The notes below the pieces were generated by a model that worked only from the letters and a program-made list of their open reading frames with translations, did not search any database and was not told the origin of the DNA. A program made the translations under genes and the position numbers. Shown one piece after another: positions 9,434 through 19,027 of a stretch of DNA of 22,327 nucleotides. The DNA is taken from IMG/VR virus record IMGVR_UViG_3300023278_002079, positions 1 to 22,327 of that record, one strand, 5' to 3'. Every line of letters starts with the position of its first letter. Within the stretch, counting starts at the first letter, position 1. The DNA comes from a virus.

Positions 9434-9472
9434 ATGTATAGGCTTCAGCCTACCACGCTCAATATCGCATGA
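9434..9472 (+). CDS. Possible 12-codon leader ORF before the fibre gene
   Basis: ATG at 9434 encodes MYRLQPTTLNIA and its TGA (9470-9472) overlaps the fibre gene ATG at 9469 in an ATGA. A TTGAC box (9418-9422) lies 16 bases before it. It may be a coupling leader for the large fibre gene, which has no SD site of its own. Too short to support by coding statistics. Confidence 0.3.
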   Translation: MYRLQPTTLNIA

Positions 9473-12153
9473 ATACAAAAGGCTACCTTGATCTCTCTAC
9501 AGGGCAACTTTCCTCCACGCTAGGCGGCTCCGACATACAGTTCCCCAAGTTGCCCTTCGGGACAGAGGTTACGCTGGGGTTGAGGCTTTCCGAGCAGATT
9601 GAAGGACAGAGCGTTGAAGCTAATCGGACCGTCGACTCGTTCCGCGCTTCCGTTGGTCGTATTGACACCCGCCCAGAGTCGGGATCATTTAACCTAGAGG
9701 TCGGAATCGAAGCCACTCCAGACGTTACAGCGAACCTGACTTACGACGCCACCGCCCAAGAGGTTCAAGACGCAATTAACGCCATCTCATCGGCGCAGAT
9801 GACCGCTCTAGGTGCTGCGACCGTAGAGCTTCTCGATGAGAGCTTTATCGTCACTTTCGCGAACGAGACGACAGCCAGCTACGCGCAGCCGACAGAGATC
9901 ACCATTTACGACGAAAACAGCCTATTCCCCGTGTCCTTCCTGCGATCACGCGCATCGCGATTCAATGCCAAGTGGAGGCACGATCTGAGACTAATTCAGG
10001 CTCCGGTGGCAAGCACGAGCACCCTGACTACTAAGTTGCCTGACCCACCTTATGTCACGGAGGACATCGCCGGTTCTGACACGGGAGTTGGAGGCACGCT
10101 AACTCCTGAAATTCAAATTCTCCACGTTCCTCGCGACTTTCGCGCAGGATACCAACTCAAGCGCAACAGCATCCATAGCAACACTCTGACCCGCGCAGAC
10201 GGCGTAGGTCAGATTGAGGAGGCATTAGCACCACTCGCCGACGAGGGGGGAATCTTTAGGGTCGAGCAAGGATTGGATGGTCAGGCTTTGATCTCGTTTG
10301 AGGGCGAGATGGCTGGAATTGACCAAGACTTGATTGAGGTCGTGGTAGTAGGAGATGACTCTGGATACCTTACTTTCACGCTAGACTTCAATACTGCTGA
10401 ACTGGCTGCGCTGATGCGTGACGCTGAGGACGGTGAAATCACCCTCCCTTTCGAAATCGAAATGGAGATTGAAGACCCTGATAACGCGGCAATCACATAT
10501 AATCGCAAGGTTCATTCCAGCACACTTACACTTATTCGCACGCTTAATTGGGACGGGTTAGCCTCAGCCGCCAATGTGGACTGGCTGCGACCACCTATTG
10601 ATGAGGTCTACGGAGGTTTCGACTACAGCCAAGTCAGTAACGGACAACTACACTATTCCGACACAGTGGGTGATGGCGTGGCTACTACGTTCGTTGTCGA
10701 TCACAACCTCGACGTGAATGCTCATAACGTAATCGTTAAGCAAGTCTCTACGGGTAATCTGCTTGTCCTTGGGACTGATTTCTCGGTCACGGAGACAAGC
10801 AGCAACTCCCTCACTGTCACGGCCCTCTCAGGTGCTCCCGCGAGCGGTGACTGGCGCGTTACCGTTCTCGGCCTTGAGCTTACTAGTTTCTTCGACCCTC
10901 ATACCCACCCTATCTCTGACATCATTGGCTTGCAGGCCATTCTCGATGACTTGGGGCAGCGTTTGACAGACTTAGAGGATCGCACTGGCACTGGCACTAT
11001 AAAGGGAACCGACGACGACGGAGGGCAAGCGGCTCATTGGCAACTTCCACCGCTTTTTGAGGTATTCCCTAGTCGCGTGGCAATTCCCGATCCTAGCACG
11101 CGACTCGTTGATCTCGACACTTCTCAACTAGGGCGACCTCGCGGGCTTCTCGCCGCCGTGCACGATGCGCAAGTTGAAGACTTGCCGAGCACTGTGCCAA
11201 CCCCAGCGAGCGAATATGTCGGGCGCGTGTTTGAGAACAACACGGGCGGCACCGTACTGCTCACGGGCGGCAAGGGTATTCGATCAGCTCGACTAGACGA
11301 CGGCGGCTTCGCGGCTTGCGACGGGCGGCTTTGGTATCAGGTCGAGCGATACGGCGAGCACGCGAGTCCGGTTGAATTTACAACCGACTTCGCAAGCGAC
11401 GAAAATCAACTTGCGGCGACCGACAACGAATTTCCAGACGGCACGATTGTCACGGTGAACTCGACCGATACGCCGCCAGCACCGCTTGTTGCGGGCAGCG
11501 ATTACGAAGTGATAAATCGTGAAGATGATGCCATTGAACTCACGAGCGTAGGCGGCTCGACCCCGATTGCTCTCACCGATGATGGTGTCGGCACTCACAC
11601 TATTACCAAGAAAGCCGAAACGTCATACTATCCGAAGGCATTTGAGCGCGAGCTATTTCAGCTCCCCGTGAATGATCGACAACTTCGACTCAAGAGCCGC
11701 TTTGAGCTTCGTTTCGCGCTTGAACTCGCCGTGCTGAAGAGCAACACCGCCGCGCAATGGGCTGTTGCGATTGAAGTCGGCGAAAAGACGACTCTTGAAA
11801 CACCTTCAAAGACCGGTAAAAATATCGAGTCGATTGTATGGCGCGGAACGCCATTGCTTGAGCAAGCGATTGTCATTTCACCGATTTCGACGGTGCATAG
11901 GTTTGGCATGGTAGTCGAGCGCAAGCTCGTCGATGAAATCGACACTCTAACCGCAACGAGTCTCTTCTATGGCACGACCGAAGCGACGGTCGCACCGAAG
12001 AGCGCAAACTTCATTCTGCGTGCTCGCTTGATCCGATTTGACACTGAAGACGGTCAGAGCGATCCAAGCGGCTTTACTGCAATCAAGGGATTTACTATAG
12101 AAACTCCGGGCGTTCAAACGCCAGCAAGTGAGGGAACAGCATTCATTAACTAA
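9469..12153 (+). CDS. Large multidomain tail fibre/appendage protein
   Basis: 894 residues, beta-rich and acidic, with no signal or membrane segment. Several phage-fibre-type modules can be seen in order. Residues ~395-470 form a domain with VDHNLDVNAHNVIVKQV and a closing ASGDWRVTVLG, common in fibre and appendage proteins. Residues ~476-490 hold DPHTHPISDIIGLQ, the HTH-type segment found in phage fibre/collar proteins, followed by a helix (LDDLGQRLTDLEDR). Residues ~635-715 form a beta domain running from FTTDFASD through PLVAGSDYEVIN to GVGTHTITKK, a module found in many phage structural proteins. It is probably an adhesion or appendage protein. Codon use changes at about 11,090-12,060, suggesting a swapped-in C-terminal module. 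Confidence 0.8.
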   Translation: MNTKGYLDLSTGQLSSTLGGSDIQFPKLPFGTEVTLGLRLSEQIEGQSVEANRTVDSFRASVGRIDTRPESGSFNLEVGIEATPDVTANLTYDATAQEVQDAINAISSAQMTALGAATVELLDESFIVTFANETTASYAQPTEITIYDENSLFPVSFLRSRASRFNAKWRHDLRLIQAPVASTSTLTTKLPDPPYVTEDIAGSDTGVGGTLTPEIQILHVPRDFRAGYQLKRNSIHSNTLTRADGVGQIEEALAPLADEGGIFRVEQGLDGQALISFEGEMAGIDQDLIEVVVVGDDSGYLTFTLDFNTAELAALMRDAEDGEITLPFEIEMEIEDPDNAAITYNRKVHSSTLTLIRTLNWDGLASAANVDWLRPPIDEVYGGFDYSQVSNGQLHYSDTVGDGVATTFVVDHNLDVNAHNVIVKQVSTGNLLVLGTDFSVTETSSNSLTVTALSGAPASGDWRVTVLGLELTSFFDPHTHPISDIIGLQAILDDLGQRLTDLEDRTGTGTIKGTDDDGGQAAHWQLPPLFEVFPSRVAIPDPSTRLVDLDTSQLGRPRGLLAAVHDAQVEDLPSTVPTPASEYVGRVFENNTGGTVLLTGGKGIRSARLDDGGFAACDGRLWYQVERYGEHASPVEFTTDFASDENQLAATDNEFPDGTIVTVNSTDTPPAPLVAGSDYEVINREDDAIELTSVGGSTPIALTDDGVGTHTITKKAETSYYPKAFERELFQLPVNDRQLRLKSRFELRFALELAVLKSNTAAQWAVAIEVGEKTTLETPSKTGKNIESIVWRGTPLLEQAIVISPISTVHRFGMVVERKLVDEIDTLTATSLFYGTTEATVAPKSANFILRARLIRFDTEDGQSDPSGFTAIKGFTIETPGVQTPASEGTAFIN

Positions 12154-12164
12154 ACTTTTTTGCA

Positions 12165-13766
12165 ATGGCATCATCACCGACAATCGACACAAGGACCAGC
12201 ATTTTATCGGCAGAGGAGGGGGGTAGCATTACATTCCTTCCATCTGCAACAGAATCTCCTACATCTTGGAGCAGCACAACGCTCCCGCCCAACACTACGT
12301 TCAACACAAGCACTGGGCAATTAGACATTGCGCCTGTGGAGGGAGATTCCGGAATTTACAGTCTTACTATCACCGCAACAAATTCACATGGCAGTGACTC
12401 GTTGCCATTGCTTATTCCAATCTACCCTGCTCCAGCAGAAGACCCAGAACCCGAAGATCAAGAATACACTGGCGAGATTACAATTCCCATTACGGTAGAT
12501 ATTGTTACTGGAAAGATCGCCTTCGACGGTGCGGAGAGTTTCGAATTTGGTCCCGCCACTTCGGAGAAGCGGCAAGAGGGATACCGAAAGTCCATCTTTC
12601 TAGCGAAGGAGGGAGATCGCTTTCCGGTGGCGTTCAAATTTGTTCGCAATGGGGTCGCCCAAGACCTTACTTTGAGGAGCATTCGCGCATTTACTCAAGA
12701 GTTCGCCCCAGATCAGACGTATGACATTCTGGAATCGTGGAGTAAGGTCGGGACGGGAGAGGATACTAGATACTATTCAGTGATGTCCTTTCCTCAAGAG
12801 ACGTTTGAGGGAATCCTGTCCAACTATGAGGAGGATTCAGGAACATACCTTGATTCTTTGGCCGAAGTCGAATACACCGTTCTTGCTTCTTCCAGTGATT
12901 ACGACACCACTCTCGCTACGGCACTTGTTGACACCAATGATCCCAATCAGTATAATCGTGATTACACTTTTGAGTTTTTGTCTTTTCCGAAAGTCGAAGA
13001 TAACACAGAAGCAACTGTGACGTTGGACCTTGATCTGCAATCCGGTCCAGACATCCAACTTGTTCGCAACGGTAGCATAAAATGGGATGCAGACGCCGGA
13101 GTTTACGTTTTTTCAAGCTGGACTGGTGACACATCAAAGGATAACGATAACGCTCAGAATCAATCCCCTTGGACAACTACATTCAGTCACGTATCCGACT
13201 CGGGTGACTCAGACTCCCTCGACATTACGGTAAATGTAAATTCTGACGATCTCAACGGCATTAGCGTTATCCGTATTCCAATAGAGGACTTCGCGTATGT
13301 GAACAGCATCTCGGACGGATTTTTGAATCTGGACGCGTCGAATCCTACTGATACCTTTACCGTGGACGTTTACGATAATGACTTATCTACTGGTGCTGAG
13401 TTCACAGTAAACATCAATGATGGAGATGCGGGTTCAAGCATCAAGACAGCTTTCACCTCCTCCCATGAAGGAGCGGGAGCGGTTGGTGAGTTTGAAGAAG
13501 GATTCATGGTCAGCGTGGTCTTGGACGAAGAGGAGCAGGATATTGTTTTCTACGTCGATTTAACAAAGACTAAGACTAGGTATTCCTTCTCTGGAATCGG
13601 AGCAGATTCCGCTTCGATCACGGCCCCCTCTTCTGCGGACGACGTTTATATTTCTGGAGGAACCGTAAGCGCAACTCTGGAAGCAGATGCAGTCGATGAC
13701 ATCCATCGCAGGACCACGGAGACATTTATTTTCAGGATCGAGAAGGACAGAATTGAGGATATTTAA
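12165..13766 (+). CDS. Tail/appendage protein with N-terminal Ig-like domain
   Basis: 533 residues. Residues ~8-82 have an immunoglobulin-like, He_PIG-type pattern: SILSAEEGGSITF, then LPPNTTFNTSTGQLDI, GDSGIYSLTITATNSHGSDS and a closing strand PLLIPIYPAP. An acidic linker (EDPEPEDQEYTGEI) follows. The remainder is beta-rich and low in cysteine (AFDGAESFEFGP, TVTLDLDLQSGPDIQL), with several NVNSDD/VNINDGD-like acidic turns that could bind divalent metal. Ig-like domains on phage virions are known surface-attachment modules, so a role in weak binding to host or matrix polysaccharide is inferred. It starts 12 bases after the fibre gene stop behind a T-rich leader and lacks a clear SD site. Confidence 0.78.
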   Translation: MASSPTIDTRTSILSAEEGGSITFLPSATESPTSWSSTTLPPNTTFNTSTGQLDIAPVEGDSGIYSLTITATNSHGSDSLPLLIPIYPAPAEDPEPEDQEYTGEITIPITVDIVTGKIAFDGAESFEFGPATSEKRQEGYRKSIFLAKEGDRFPVAFKFVRNGVAQDLTLRSIRAFTQEFAPDQTYDILESWSKVGTGEDTRYYSVMSFPQETFEGILSNYEEDSGTYLDSLAEVEYTVLASSSDYDTTLATALVDTNDPNQYNRDYTFEFLSFPKVEDNTEATVTLDLDLQSGPDIQLVRNGSIKWDADAGVYVFSSWTGDTSKDNDNAQNQSPWTTTFSHVSDSGDSDSLDITVNVNSDDLNGISVIRIPIEDFAYVNSISDGFLNLDASNPTDTFTVDVYDNDLSTGAEFTVNINDGDAGSSIKTAFTSSHEGAGAVGEFEEGFMVSVVLDEEEQDIVFYVDLTKTKTRYSFSGIGADSASITAPSSADDVYISGGTVSATLEADAVDDIHRRTTETFIFRIEKDRIEDI

Positions 13767-13768
13767 TT

Positions 13769-14638
13769 ATGGCAACACCTAGCAAAGTGCGTCTAAAGCC
13801 TTCTGCTCTGGCGCACATGATTAGCGCGACTCGTGACACTATCACTAATAATGTTAGTCCTGTTGCGTCCGTTTATTCAGGAACTTACATTTTTTCTCCA
13901 GACGGAAGCGTTGTTGGCATTCGGTTAGCAAGCGGGGGGTCCGTTCCGGTAAGCCCACCGTGGAAGCCTGACACAACGACCGTAGCGAATGATAAACCAC
14001 TCGATTCGATTGGCAATAACCTATCGCGTCGTGGTGACGGAAGCTACACTGGAGTCAGCGGTCCGGCGGAATATTACGACGTAAACGCTCCGACAAATAG
14101 CAGGTCTAACACTGGATCGAGTGAGGGTGGAACTTTGGACTTTCAGAATCTTGAAAGTATAGTGAACGGGAATAACCTCATAGAGCTTGAACCATTGATT
14201 CCATTGATCCCAGATGATGTGTTCATCGAGTTCGACATTCACACGACCGATGACGAAATTCTGTTATACTACAATGCCAAGGCGACGTTCGACGACGGGG
14301 GGGGCGACTTTACTCACAACTTTTCAACCGCATCCTATTACGCGAGGACGACGGGAGTTCCGATCAGTCGAAGCAGTTGGAAGGAGGGTGAGCTATACAT
14401 ACAATGGATCACCTACGAAAACGGAGTGTGGTATTCCTACACCTCCGATGAGCGAAAAGTTATTGAGAACAACACGTTAAGTGAAGCCGATTATAGAGCA
14501 ATAGACTGGAAATTTCCAGACTCATGTAATTTGGTAGCAATTTCTCGACCCGCAATTCCCACCGATGCAGACGACAGCAATCAGTCCACAACTCCGACTT
14601 TCGACATCCAAAATCCTCCTTGCTCTGTATGGGGTTGA
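13769..14638 (+). CDS. Probable tail/appendage protein, unknown
   Basis: 289 residues, starting 2 bases after the previous stop. N-terminus ATPSKVRLKPSALAHMI, then a Ser/Gly/Asn-rich segment with low complexity (~residues 75-125), a strand-rich middle (DVFIEFDIHTTDDEILLYYNAK) and a Trp/Tyr-rich part (GELYIQWITYENGVWYSYTS). The C-terminus is polar and ends PPCSVWG. Composition and place at the end of the fibre block suggest a virion appendage protein. A run of eight G bases (14297-14304) encodes three glycines in the middle. The stop TGA lies inside the TTGAC box before the glycosyltransferase gene. Confidence 0.7.
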   Translation: MATPSKVRLKPSALAHMISATRDTITNNVSPVASVYSGTYIFSPDGSVVGIRLASGGSVPVSPPWKPDTTTVANDKPLDSIGNNLSRRGDGSYTGVSGPAEYYDVNAPTNSRSNTGSSEGGTLDFQNLESIVNGNNLIELEPLIPLIPDDVFIEFDIHTTDDEILLYYNAKATFDDGGGDFTHNFSTASYYARTTGVPISRSSWKEGELYIQWITYENGVWYSYTSDERKVIENNTLSEADYRAIDWKFPDSCNLVAISRPAIPTDADDSNQSTTPTFDIQNPPCSVWG

Positions 14639-14656
14639 CTTTGATCGCTGAGTGTA

Positions 14657-16009
14657 ATGCTTGCAGTTTTATCGTGTAATGTTCAAGAAAAGGATATACC
14701 CCGTATAATTCTGGAACTAAAAAAGGCCGGACAGAAGTTTGCTCTTTTTGGATATTCGCAATCGTTTCCAGACGCGCTCATTCAAGCGAATTTTACCCAC
14801 CCCTCAGTCGTTAAAAGCTATCTTGCCAAAAGGGGGCAGACTTGGGTGGACACAATCACTCTGGATGGATACGGTAATTTGAAAAAGGTTTCATTTATTC
14901 GTCCGGATAAAAGCAATCCGCCATCCCGACATCCTTACTCGTCAGGGTCGGGAGGGTCGTCCTGTTTCCCCTGTGAAGATTCTGTCAAATCTGGCTATAC
15001 CAATGACTACTCCACTCAAAAGGATTTACGGGAGTGCGATGTGCTAAGTATGTTCCAGCGGGCGTTCCCATCTTGGCTTGATTGTCGCGGGGTTAGGTTT
15101 GGAGAGTTTCTGGAGAAGCATGGAATCCTACACGATTACTATTTTACGAACCAACACAACGAAGTTCCTGCAACTCGTGAGGCCATCAAGGAGAGTGGTT
15201 GCTCCGTAGTTCTCATAGATTTGGCAATTATGCTGCCCGTATCGCTGGAGAAACTGGCGAACGAGTTTCCGGAAGTGACATTCATTCCGATCATGCACTG
15301 CTCTCCGAACTATCATCATGGAGGAAAGGCATGGTTCAATCGGACCATCGCGCAGCAAGCGATCAGTGTGCGATGCGAGAATGTGAAGTTTGGAACCGTA
15401 ATGGACAGGGATCGCTACGATGATTTCCACGGTGCAGATGTGATTTCACTTCCAAACTTTTTCGACATTCCCGAATTAGATTATGCGGTGAAAGATGCGG
15501 ACGCTCCACCCGTGTTCTCAATGGTTGGTCGAAACGACAACGTGAAAGGAGTTCCCGCATCCATTTCTATACTAGCAAGACTCCGCGAGGAAATGGAATT
15601 GCAGTGCATCGGCATTTCCACGCAGTTTCCCTCGGATCACCGTGCGAAACTCGCGCAAGCGCATATTCCTAGCTCCCTGATCCCGTGGACAACTTGGCAG
15701 AAGTCTCTGGAAATCATCGCGAGTTACGTCGATATTGGAATGCAATTATCGCAGTCCGAGTCTTTCAACCTCGTGTCGATTGAGCACATGGCACTTGGCA
15801 AGCCGATGATCGCAACCCCCGCCATCGAATACATTCCGGAAGAATGGCAGATCAACCCGCAGAATCCGCGTGAGGGAGTAGGGGTGGCGAAGCGAATTTT
15901 GGAAAACTACGAGGAGGAATCGGAGAAGGCGAGAATCGTCGCGCTTGCGGTCGGAACCCGTTGTAACGAAATACTTCTCGAAAACTTGATACCCCTAATA
16001 AAACGATGA
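14657..16009 (+). CDS. GT-B glycosyltransferase (GT4-like) with N-terminal insertion
   Basis: 450 residues. The C-terminal half has hallmarks of a GT-B retaining glycosyltransferase: SMVGRNDNVKGVP (residues 288-300, the VGR...KG nucleotide-sugar loop) and ESFNLVSIEHMALGKPMIAT (368-387), which contains the E-x7-E pair (E368, E376). The N-terminus begins like the first Rossmann strand (MLAVLSC) but carries an unusual stretch at ~45-115 (KRGQTWVDTITLDGYGNL, then a Ser/Gly linker and CFPC) before the donor/acceptor core resumes. The donor sugar and acceptor are unknown. It lies between fibre genes and a sulfotransferase that it overlaps by ATGA, so it may decorate virion proteins or a host surface glycan. 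The ATG follows TTGAC at 22 bases. Confidence 0.85.
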   Translation: MLAVLSCNVQEKDIPRIILELKKAGQKFALFGYSQSFPDALIQANFTHPSVVKSYLAKRGQTWVDTITLDGYGNLKKVSFIRPDKSNPPSRHPYSSGSGGSSCFPCEDSVKSGYTNDYSTQKDLRECDVLSMFQRAFPSWLDCRGVRFGEFLEKHGILHDYYFTNQHNEVPATREAIKESGCSVVLIDLAIMLPVSLEKLANEFPEVTFIPIMHCSPNYHHGGKAWFNRTIAQQAISVRCENVKFGTVMDRDRYDDFHGADVISLPNFFDIPELDYAVKDADAPPVFSMVGRNDNVKGVPASISILARLREEMELQCIGISTQFPSDHRAKLAQAHIPSSLIPWTTWQKSLEIIASYVDIGMQLSQSESFNLVSIEHMALGKPMIATPAIEYIPEEWQINPQNPREGVGVAKRILENYEEESEKARIVALAVGTRCNEILLENLIPLIKR

Positions 16010-16602
16010 CCTTCTTTATTTCTACAATAGGCCGAAGTGGTTCCACTTGGCTATCGAATGTCCTAAATCGCGGCGACCACGAAGTTTGTCACGAGGACGC
16101 AGAACCCAGCCCTCAACCTTATGTCCGAGCTTTTGGACGCTTTCCCATCGAAAGGTTTTCAAAATCAAAATATGGCGAGGTTCACGGATATTTAAGATAT
16201 AATCTTAGCCCGAATGCGGTGGGGCCGGAAATCCTAATTCAGAAGAGAGCAATCCTGCAACGCGACCCAAGAAGAGTAGTTACCAGTTGGATGAATCGCG
16301 ACAACAGAAGGATTGAGGAGTTAAGTGCCGTCTGCTACGAGGTATTGTATCAAAGACGAATACTTCAAGAGTGGGCTATGGCGACCGAAAGTCGGATTGT
16401 GGAGCTAGACGAAATATCCTCCAGCTCCAAATCCTTACAAGAACTTGTGAATTGGATCGGTATTGACTATGAGGTGAGCGATAGCGATTTATTGCCTCAA
16501 AACGCCAATGACAATGGGCGAAGAAGGATTTGGTTTAAATGGAATGAAGAGTCAGAGCGCGTGATGCAAACGACAGCATTCAGACAAGGAATAGATGTTT
16601 GA
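16006..16602 (+). CDS. PAPS-dependent sulfotransferase family protein
   Basis: 198 residues. The N-terminal STIGRSGSTWLSNVL (residues 6-20) is the 5'-phosphosulfate-binding loop of sulfotransferases, and ILQRDPRRVVTSWMNR (83-98) the 3'-phosphate-binding motif with Arg86 and Ser94. These bind the sulfate donor PAPS. The protein is shorter than most family members but both donor motifs are intact. His29/Glu30/Glu33 (CHEDAE) are candidate catalytic or substrate-side residues. The start overlaps the glycosyltransferase stop (ATGA at 16006-16009), so the two enzymes are co-translated and probably act on the same product, a sulfated glycan. The host would have to supply PAPS. Its TGA is part of TTGACACGTCAA, a palindrome. 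Confidence 0.85.
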   Translation: MTFFISTIGRSGSTWLSNVLNRGDHEVCHEDAEPSPQPYVRAFGRFPIERFSKSKYGEVHGYLRYNLSPNAVGPEILIQKRAILQRDPRRVVTSWMNRDNRRIEELSAVCYEVLYQRRILQEWAMATESRIVELDEISSSSKSLQELVNWIGIDYEVSDSDLLPQNANDNGRRRIWFKWNEESERVMQTTAFRQGIDV

Positions 16603-16610
16603 CACGTCAA
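16599..16610 (+). promoter_or_regulatory. Palindrome TTGACacGTCAA with TTGAC box
   Basis: TTGAC and its reverse complement GTCAA separated by 2 bases, overlapping the sulfotransferase stop. The TTGAC is 22 bases before an ATG at 16621, the same distance as the TTGAC before the glycosyltransferase start. It could be a regulator-binding site for the lysis block; this is inference. Confidence 0.4.
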
Positions 16611-16620
16611 CTTGAGCGCA

Positions 16621-16656
16621 ATGAGGCTTGCAATCTACCTCACACCATATTTCTAG
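16621..16656 (+). CDS. Possible 11-codon micro-ORF
   Basis: ATG at 16621 encodes MRLAIYLTPYF and then stops. The sequence before it, CTTGAGCGCAATG, is close to GCTGAGTGTAATG before the glycosyltransferase start, and both have TTGAC 22 bases upstream. It may be the stub of a decayed gene of the glycosyltransferase type or a leader peptide. Confidence 0.25.
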   Translation: MRLAIYLTPYF

Positions 16657-16663
16657 GAGGACT

Positions 16664-16723
16664 ATGACCTGCTGGGCGTCCCAAATAGATGGATACAAGC
16701 GGTTGTCATTGCTTGTTTTATAA
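16664..16723 (+). CDS. Possible 19-codon micro-ORF with strong SD site
   Basis: ATG at 16664 encodes MTCWASQIDGYKRLSLLVL. AGGAGG lies 3 bases before the ATG, the strongest SD site in the window, in a genome where such sites are rare. It sits in the 140-base gap before the lysis genes and could be a leader peptide controlling them. No protein family is visible. Confidence 0.35.
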   Translation: MTCWASQIDGYKRLSLLVL

Positions 16724-16742
16724 CACATAGACTAAAACTCAA

Positions 16743-17060
16743 ATGCTTACACTTACTATAATGCTGCTTGGTTCACTTACGGTCCTGTTGTCACTGTTTG
16801 CGGCACGAGAGTTTATGAAGGCAGCAGGATCGGTTGATGGGTCTGCGAAGCACGTTTCATCAGCTATATCTTGGCAGCTTTGGGGGGAAAGTGTGATTGG
16901 GCTAGGGACACTGATTTTTGCTACTGCCGCGCATTTCGATTGGCTATCTTCTTGGAGCCTTGCCATTCAGAGCAGTCTTCGCCTAACTATGTTCATCGCC
17001 ACGTCCGTAACCACAGCCCACTTGTGCTTTGTGGTGGTCAAGCTCAAGGGGTTGAAATAA
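16743..17060 (+). CDS. Small three-helix membrane protein, holin candidate
   Basis: 105 residues with three predicted membrane segments: ~3-21 (TLTIMLLGSLTVLLSLFAA), ~51-68 (VIGLGTLIFATAAHF) and ~79-99 (RLTMFIATSVTTAHLCFVVV). A short Lys/Gly end follows (KLKGLK). Size and topology match class I holins, which form lesions in the inner membrane at lysis time. It is the first gene of the lysis block and its stop lies 1 base before the next ATG. The leader is A/C-rich (CACATAGACTAAAACTCAA) and has no SD site. The holin role is inferred from size, topology and neighbours. Confidence 0.68.
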   Translation: MLTLTIMLLGSLTVLLSLFAAREFMKAAGSVDGSAKHVSSAISWQLWGESVIGLGTLIFATAAHFDWLSSWSLAIQSSLRLTMFIATSVTTAHLCFVVVKLKGLK

Positions 17061-17061
17061 T

Positions 17062-17433
17062 ATGAGTTATCTCGCCCCTATTGATACGGAACCCCTGTCA
17101 GCAGTGTCGGATTCTGAAGCGTTGTGGGCCGAGCATGGCCTGACTGGTCTGGTCCTATTCTCGCTTCTGTCTATAATCGTGATGTTCGTGCGGTTCAACC
17201 AGACGAAGAGTTATGAACACAATAATTTTGTAGAGAAGCTCCTTGAGGAGAGCATGGATGAGCGCAGGGAAATTCGCAATGATAATGCGAAGAACGTGGA
17301 CAAACTGTCTGCGGCTATTGACTCACTGACCGACTCAATCAAGAACACCACGAGAGTAGAGGTTCACAAGCCCGCCAGACTCAGTGATGAGATTGACGGC
17401 AAGAACGGCGGTGAGGGCCGATGCTGTGGGTGA
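17062..17433 (+). CDS. Single-span membrane protein with coiled coil, lysis-associated
   Basis: 123 residues. After an acidic N-terminus, one predicted membrane segment lies at ~27-44 (LTGLVLFSLLSIIVMFVRF), followed by a long charged helix at ~52-98 (EKLLEESMDERREIRNDN, DKLSAAIDSLTDSIKNT). The end is Gly/Cys-rich (GGEGRCCG). This one-span-plus-coiled-coil layout recalls BhlA/UviB-type holins and i-spanins. It starts 1 base after the preceding membrane protein gene and precedes a second holin candidate. Which lysis step it serves is not clear. Confidence 0.65.
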   Translation: MSYLAPIDTEPLSAVSDSEALWAEHGLTGLVLFSLLSIIVMFVRFNQTKSYEHNNFVEKLLEESMDERREIRNDNAKNVDKLSAAIDSLTDSIKNTTRVEVHKPARLSDEIDGKNGGEGRCCG

Positions 17434-18103: not shown

Positions 18104-19027
18104 ATGGGTGACTTGAGCGAAAATGAGAGGAAGCTGGCGTGGACAGAGGTTTGGCGATTGCAAAACAGCCATTACAGCGGACTTACCAGTGCGGAGAGGA
18201 GCCAGCTCATCTCAGTGTTTCACGACCTTCTGGGCTACGGCAAGTCTGAGCAGGTCAATGATGATTGGGCTGCTGCCGGAAGTTCTGATCCTGAGCGGTC
18301 TGCGGTTGATGCGAGTCCCGCAGCGGGGGCGCATCCATTACTAGACATTCACGACCCCAAGCACTACCTGTTCGGCGAGGGGAAGAAGTGGATTCCTTGG
18401 GCCAAGGACTGTAAGGGAGGCAGTAAGCGAGGCACTTACGCGGACGGCTACCCCAGAGGTATCGTGCTGCACTGGACAGCGGGACACCGCAACGGCATCG
18501 AGGCTGGCAACCAACTGATGCGCAACACGGGTATGTTGTATTTAATTGGAGATAAGGATGGCAATATCGGGCAATGTGATTCACTAGCCTATTGGGGCTA
18601 TCACGCGGGGAGGTCATCTCATCCTAGATGCAATGGTGGAGTCTCTGATGAGTTCTGCGGGCTTGAACTGCAAGCTGCCGGAACACTGACCAAGAAAGGT
18701 GATAAATTTTATTCATGGTTCAACACTGAAATACCGGCGGAAGAGGTTATGTTCAGCGAGACTCGCGGCAATATTGATCGCGGATTCTACCATGTCTTTA
18801 CGGAGGAACAGGTTCTCGCCACTCGCAAGCTCTGTTGTTGGCTCCACCTGAATAACCCTGACGTATTCAAGATCGACAATATCACCTCTCACGATGAAAT
18901 CAGCCCCGGTCGCAAAACCGACATCGGAGCATCAATGGTCGTTGATGGTAAAGCTCTTGAGATTTTAGAGTTCCGCGCACTCGTTGAATCCGATGTTAGC
19001 CGCATCCTAGAGAATAGAGACTCTTAG
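18104..19027 (+). CDS. Endolysin, zinc N-acetylmuramoyl-L-alanine amidase (Amidase_2)
   Basis: 307 residues. It cuts the bond between N-acetylmuramic acid and the stem peptide of peptidoglycan. The catalytic domain spans ~115-285: GIVLHWTAGH (zinc His123), YWGYHAG (Tyr166/His167), GLELQ, and TSHDEISPGRKTDIG (zinc His263, Lys271, zinc Asp273), the T7 lysozyme/PGRP arrangement. The N-terminal ~100 residues carry a helical segment (ERKLAWTEVWRLQNSHYSG) and then a linker. This N-terminal part may be a wall-binding or regulatory module, although it has no recognised domain. No signal peptide is seen, so release depends on the holins just upstream. Last gene before a terminator. Confidence 0.9.
   Translation: MGDLSENERKLAWTEVWRLQNSHYSGLTSAERSQLISVFHDLLGYGKSEQVNDDWAAAGSSDPERSAVDASPAAGAHPLLDIHDPKHYLFGEGKKWIPWAKDCKGGSKRGTYADGYPRGIVLHWTAGHRNGIEAGNQLMRNTGMLYLIGDKDGNIGQCDSLAYWGYHAGRSSHPRCNGGVSDEFCGLELQAAGTLTKKGDKFYSWFNTEIPAEEVMFSETRGNIDRGFYHVFTEEQVLATRKLCCWLHLNNPDVFKIDNITSHDEISPGRKTDIGASMVVDGKALEILEFRALVESDVSRILENRDS

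Follow-up and report, generated by a model that had tools for sequence, protein, structure and literature searches.

A predicted glycosyltransferase (GT) and a divergent, predicted PAPS-type sulfotransferase (ST) form, together with the two fibre genes lying directly 5' of them (F533 and F289), an exact four-gene block that, as judged from sequence comparison, moved as one cassette between two distantly related phages. The DNA analysed, hereafter the window, is IMG/VR virus record IMGVR_UViG_3300023278_002079 over its full length of 22,327 bases. It carries, in this order, a major capsid gene, tape measure and tail genes, a set of three large fibre-like genes (9469-14638), GT, ST, a holin-like gene and an amidase endolysin (Table 1). 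The GT gene starts 18 nt behind F289, within this tail-to-lysis gene run, and no convincing promoter or terminator was seen between the two.

Table 1. Coordinates of the cassette, its genes and motifs, and the flanking genes in the window.
Feature	Position	Strand	Remarks
F894, conserved backbone tail-fibre protein	9469..12153	+	5' of the cassette, outside the transferred block
Transferred cassette, F533 + F289 + GT + ST	12162..16607	+	blastn against L007, 88.7%
F533, Ig-domain (He_PIG-like) fibre protein	12165..13766	+	
F289, presumed distal fibre protein	13769..14638	+	position conserved, 40-89% identity in sister contigs
GT, predicted GT4-type (GT-B) glycosyltransferase, 450 aa	14657..16009	+	PF13692, 6.6e-8
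GT donor-site motif VGRNDNVKG	15524..15550	+	VGR-x4-KG, residues 290-298
GT E-x7-E motif (ESFNLVSIE)	15758..15784	+	E368, E376
ATGA stop/start overlap of GT and ST	16006..16009	+	sequence
ST, predicted divergent PAPS-dependent sulfotransferase, 198 aa	16006..16602	+	
ST 5'-PSB loop GRSGSTW	16030..16050	+	G9-R-S-G-S; invariant except T14 in three members
ST 3'-PB motif	16261..16287	+	R86-x7-S94; R86 and S94 invariant in three members
Gene-start remnant (MSAMRLAIYLTPYF), cassette 3' edge	16612..16656	+	43 nt at 93% to L006
Holin-like small hydrophobic protein, first of the lysis genes	16743..17060	+	maximal Kyte-Doolittle 2.19
Amidase	18104-19027		3' of the holin-like gene

Pattern scans of IMG/VR returned GT or ST in just two other contigs, 3300021958_000843 (L007) and 3300040807_002848, the identical pair for both proteins. 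This GT/ST form was thus seen in three contigs, window included; such scans reach close relatives best, so that distant copies of GT and ST may exist. Both sister contigs keep the order F894-F533-F289-GT-ST, with a 4-nt overlap between the two enzyme genes. In blastn, window positions 12162-16607 align with L007 at 88.7% nucleotide identity over 4450 alignment columns, whereas the flanks give scattered short matches only. At the protein level, identity to the same contig is 86-93% inside the block and 32-52% outside, and the F894 proteins share 52-58% amino acid identity with those of the two sister contigs. The block ends 3 nt 5' of the F533 start codon and 5 nt 3' of the ST stop. Given this contrast between block and flanking proteins, we conclude that the four genes were transferred together, the unit being exchanged against a diverged backbone as in a mobile fibre (host-range) cassette. 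The initial annotation had linked the enzyme pair to the adjacent fibre genes, and had named homologues always standing apart among unrelated neighbours as the finding that would speak against it; the pair lies together behind fibre genes in all three contigs, and the order is conserved even in the third.

The GC content of the cassette is 47.7%, against 51.3-51.7% in the window flanks and 48.1% in L007, pointing to the lineage of the window as the recipient. An assembly chimera is an unlikely origin of the block, because the two copies differ by 11%, with dS of 0.3-0.7, and its ends coincide with gene borders. All four genes are under purifying selection (dN/dS of 0.126 for F533, 0.170 for F289, 0.109 for GT and 0.095 for ST), so that GT and ST are maintained by selection. 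Note that dS is higher for GT than for the fibre genes (0.67 versus 0.32), so the history of GT may be more complex than a single event. At the 3' edge of the cassette, the remnant of a gene start runs into a stop after 14 codons in the window; the corresponding 144-aa ORF is open behind ST in L003 and L006. At positions 8441-8468 of L007, F533 is 33 residues shorter at its end owing to a 1-nt difference near the 3' end, either a frameshift or an assembly error.

The assignment of GT is firm for a sequence-based prediction. It scores above the curated cut-offs of two Pfam models, PF13692 (E 6.6e-8, 33.4 bits, cut-off 27) and PF00534 (E 7.7e-7, 29.3 bits, cut-off 26.4), and the V, G, R, K and G of VGR-x4-KG as well as both glutamates of E-x7-E are invariant in the three family members. 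The catalytic-domain match and the E-x7-E and GR...K motifs expected of a retaining GT4/GT-B glycosyltransferase are thus both present, as the initial annotation had read from the motifs, and GT is predicted to transfer a sugar.

ST is more divergent. Its sole Pfam matches are two sulfotransferase models, both below the curated cut-offs: PF13469 (E 0.0043, 17.8 bits, cut-off 27) and PF00685 (E 0.03, 14.1 bits, cut-off 22). The best family member reaches E 0.0013. Only three PDB entries, all of them cytosolic sulfotransferases, match the single sequence up to E 10, and the alignments lie at the PSB loop (E 0.17-1.3). A profile was built from 53 Verrucomicrobiota sulfotransferases encoded in host-order genomes. 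With it, hmmsearch gives E 2.5e-4 for the window ST, compared with 28 for the best shuffled control, but no significant match to the L003 member; hhalign covers the full length of ST at 94.3% (E 1.9e-8). Both loops of the donor site, the 5'-PSB loop (RSG[ST]) and the 3'-PB R-x7-S, are conserved, the latter with the spacing of 8 that is found in SULT enzymes. An AlphaFold model built from the three available sequences was too poor (pLDDT 38) and was discarded. Profile, hhalign, PDB matches and motifs taken together make the prediction of ST as a divergent PAPS-dependent P-loop sulfotransferase well supported, and the claim of a PAPS-type enzyme with both donor loops stands, for a protein below the Pfam cut-off. 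The ATGA coupling of the two genes, also claimed at the outset, recurs as a 4-nt overlap in L003 and L004. No clear membrane span was found in GT or ST. Homologues were found among INPHARED phages for neither protein and, for ST, in none of 388 sampled host-phylum genomes besides the starting genome.

F533 matches He_PIG at E 0.012 in the window and 2.1e-11 in the L003 orthologue, and the L020 protein occupying the F533 slot matches a PHROG tail family. A Ser/Thr-dense stretch of F533, considered as an O-glycosylation site, is Ig-domain-like sequence and for that reason was not counted as evidence. The C-terminal part of F289 (residues 184-248; window 14318-14512) carries a weakly Tad2-like motif (PF11195, E 0.22, below cut-off), which it shares, at E 0.22-0.25 overall, with fibre-tip proteins of L009, L011, L020, L022, L028, L029 and L036.

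Relatives of F894 were found in 14 IMG/VR contigs and 11 genome contigs. Ten of the latter are labelled Verrucomicrobiota and one Microbacteriaceae, and from these labels the virus probably infects Verrucomicrobiota. The Microbacteriaceae-labelled contig (L024, RFQD01000144.1) is 4.3 kb long and possibly misbinned. The fibre domain was present in only 2 of the 388 sampled host-phylum genomes. PF13469 sulfotransferases occur in 25 of 57 sampled genomes of the host order (the order of one F894-bearing genome), which indicates that PAPS is probably available in the host.

The slot behind F894 was examined in related loci. Between L018 and L019 (L018 13496-22170), identity is 93-97% as far as the F894 equivalent extends, the fibre genes 3' of it are unrelated or strongly diverged, and identity returns near the lysis genes; by this second exchange, the slot is an exchange site more generally. 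L020, L022 and the IMG/VR contig L036 have the order F894, F533-like, F289-like and then a two-part protein of ~644 aa, which in L023 lies directly 3' of F894. In L020 and L022, its start codon and the stop of the F289-like gene share an ATGA; the start is at the same place in L036, where the protein is cut by the contig end. The first part is GT-A-like, with a DxD-type 'LLDADI' motif, and the second has VRSWGT, HNHT, RDPREVLVS and SSSPGW at sulfotransferase-like spacing. At the level of motifs, this protein, found with four of the fibre relatives, has putative GT-like and ST-like parts; neither part was confirmed by any profile, the C-terminal one having no Pfam match, an hhalign probability of 0.3% and an hmmsearch score within the noise of the ORF set. 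An AlphaFold model reached a pLDDT of 50.8, and the Foldseek PDB matches of this poor model, to NDP-sugar and glycosyltransferase enzymes at a TM of about 0.1, were uninterpretable. An N-terminal domain common to GT and the 644-aa protein, suggested by eye, was rejected as well (hhalign 0.3%, shuffles scoring equally). Homologues of the 644-aa protein were found neither among INPHARED phages nor, the starting genome aside, in the 388 host-phylum genomes. In another related phage, L014, a DUF6734 protein (PF20508, 9e-11; 16586-17413) lies between two fibre genes.

That the four genes were transferred as a unit points to enzymes in the service of the receptor-binding tips. The explanation we favour, and hold to be somewhat probable, is that GT and ST supply the modification in a mobile receptor-binding cassette and place a sulfated sugar on fibre proteins. 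In the cytoplasm, GT would glycosylate newly made F533 and/or F289 with a sugar taken from a nucleotide-sugar donor; ST would then transfer sulfate from host PAPS onto the added sugar. The fibre tips of the virions would thus bear a sulfated glycan, with an effect on adsorption or on tip stability. The initial annotation had proposed either virion proteins or host surface glycans as the target, with a possible role in seawater or mucus. As the enzymes have no clear membrane span and no flippase or lipid-carrier partner adjoins them, a cytosolic protein acceptor is the simplest. Support comes also from the late position of the genes, the translational overlap, the co-transfer with exactly the two upstream fibre genes, the purifying selection on all four genes and the same order in the third, diverged contig; further from the 644-aa protein in the same slot, with its motif-level resemblance, from the DUF6734 gene of L014, from the PF13469 enzymes of the host order and from the cyanophage linkage described below.

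The main weakness of this explanation is that the co-transfer would be equally expected if the enzymes changed the receptor that the fibres bind. By receptor masking or superinfection exclusion, GT and ST could change the glycan that the fibres recognise on the host surface, or a precursor of this glycan, and so block other phages or the trapping of progeny on debris. We regard this as rather unlikely, but as a serious rival and the strongest of the alternatives. A precedent is llp of phage T5, which adjoins the receptor-binding gene of that phage. Sulfotransferases are, as seen above, common in the host order, and Verrucomicrobiota isolates producing sulfated glycosaminoglycan-like exopolymers have been reported (PMC7356697). 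Against this, genes placed late, between those for fibres and lysis, leave little time for surface glycans to be renewed, the enzymes have no clear membrane span, and the pair is accompanied by neither a lipid-carrier glycosyltransferase nor a flippase. Temperate phages that glucosylate the O-antigen do so with gtr clusters made of a flippase, a bactoprenol transferase and a polytopic transferase. Like the window, these clusters encode phage glycosyltransferases, theirs altering surface glycans, but none of the three components is present at the window locus, where the neighbours of the pair are fibre and lysis genes.

A function as auxiliary metabolic genes is less likely still. Their product would then serve host physiology, as a small sulfated metabolite, a lipid or an exopolysaccharide precursor, and the linkage of the two enzymes to the fibre genes would reflect the chance of where the cassette ends. 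This is how phage sulfotransferases are usually classed (PMC8290583), and the function of the PF13469 sulfotransferase encoded by OM43-type marine phages has been called unclear (PMC10580990). Those enzymes are phage-encoded, as is ST, which matches PF13469 below the cut-off, but they were reported without a glycosyltransferase or fibre link, whereas the order behind the same fibre genes is kept in three of three contigs here and the co-transfer is exact. Modification of a DNA base or nucleotide as protection from restriction is highly improbable: phage glycosyltransferases often act on DNA (cited in PMC12619734), but GT and ST are located in the fibre module and no base-modification gene was found among the ORFs tested in the 22 kb, an absence that carries little weight in a record that is a fragment.

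Phage sulfotransferases and phage virion glycosylation are already known; what is new is a GT-ST pair co-transferred with two fibre genes as an exact four-gene block. We found no such pair inside a mobile fibre cassette in the literature searched, largely outside subscription journals. Sulfotransferases had initially been taken as uncommon in phage late operons. Among phage isolates they are indeed uncommon (no INPHARED match to ST, and three records with a cellular ST as query), but not absent from phages: at least 31 cyanophage-type contigs in IMG/VR (L105-L135) carry a sulfotransferase like that of cyanophage S-SRM01, with the GT2-methyltransferase gene within about 4 kb in 30 of 31. In S-SRM01 itself, a PF13469/PF00685 sulfotransferase lies beside a GT2-methyltransferase in a cluster that also holds a 228-aa protein, an epimerase and RCC1-repeat and LamG-domain proteins. 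As in the cassette, sulfotransferase and glycosyltransferase are linked and near a lectin-domain fibre-like gene, but the sulfotransferase is of another family (phrog_27463), the glycosyltransferase is GT2 and not GT4, the cluster is larger, with its sugar-nucleotide epimerase, and the host is cyanobacterial. By sequence and gene order, sulfotransferase and glycosyltransferase thus lie near fibre-like genes in at least two unrelated phage lineages, or three if the 644-aa protein is what its motifs suggest. Mycobacteriophage glycosyltransferases glycosylate capsid and tail tube proteins (Freeman et al, 2023, as cited in PMC12619734). They are likewise thought to act on virion proteins, with other acceptors and other glycosyltransferases, whereas the window pair sits in a mobile fibre cassette. 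We know of no sulfotransferase in the mycobacteriophage systems.

It is possible, and we put this forward tentatively, that phages of Verrucomicrobiota and, independently, cyanophages make a sulfated glycan on their fibre tips with enzymes that travel with the tip genes, virion sulfation then being part of a host-range module that can be exchanged and that may imitate or engage the sulfated exopolymers of the host. Sulfotransferase genes have so far been recorded in phages with no role known for them; since ST was co-transferred exactly with a GT and two fibre genes, its likely targets are few and testable. To our knowledge, few phages of Verrucomicrobiota have been described, and the cassette offers a handle on them. 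If this reading is confirmed, the sulfoglycan on the virion would be of the phage's own making and would account for the movement of such enzymes with receptor-binding genes.
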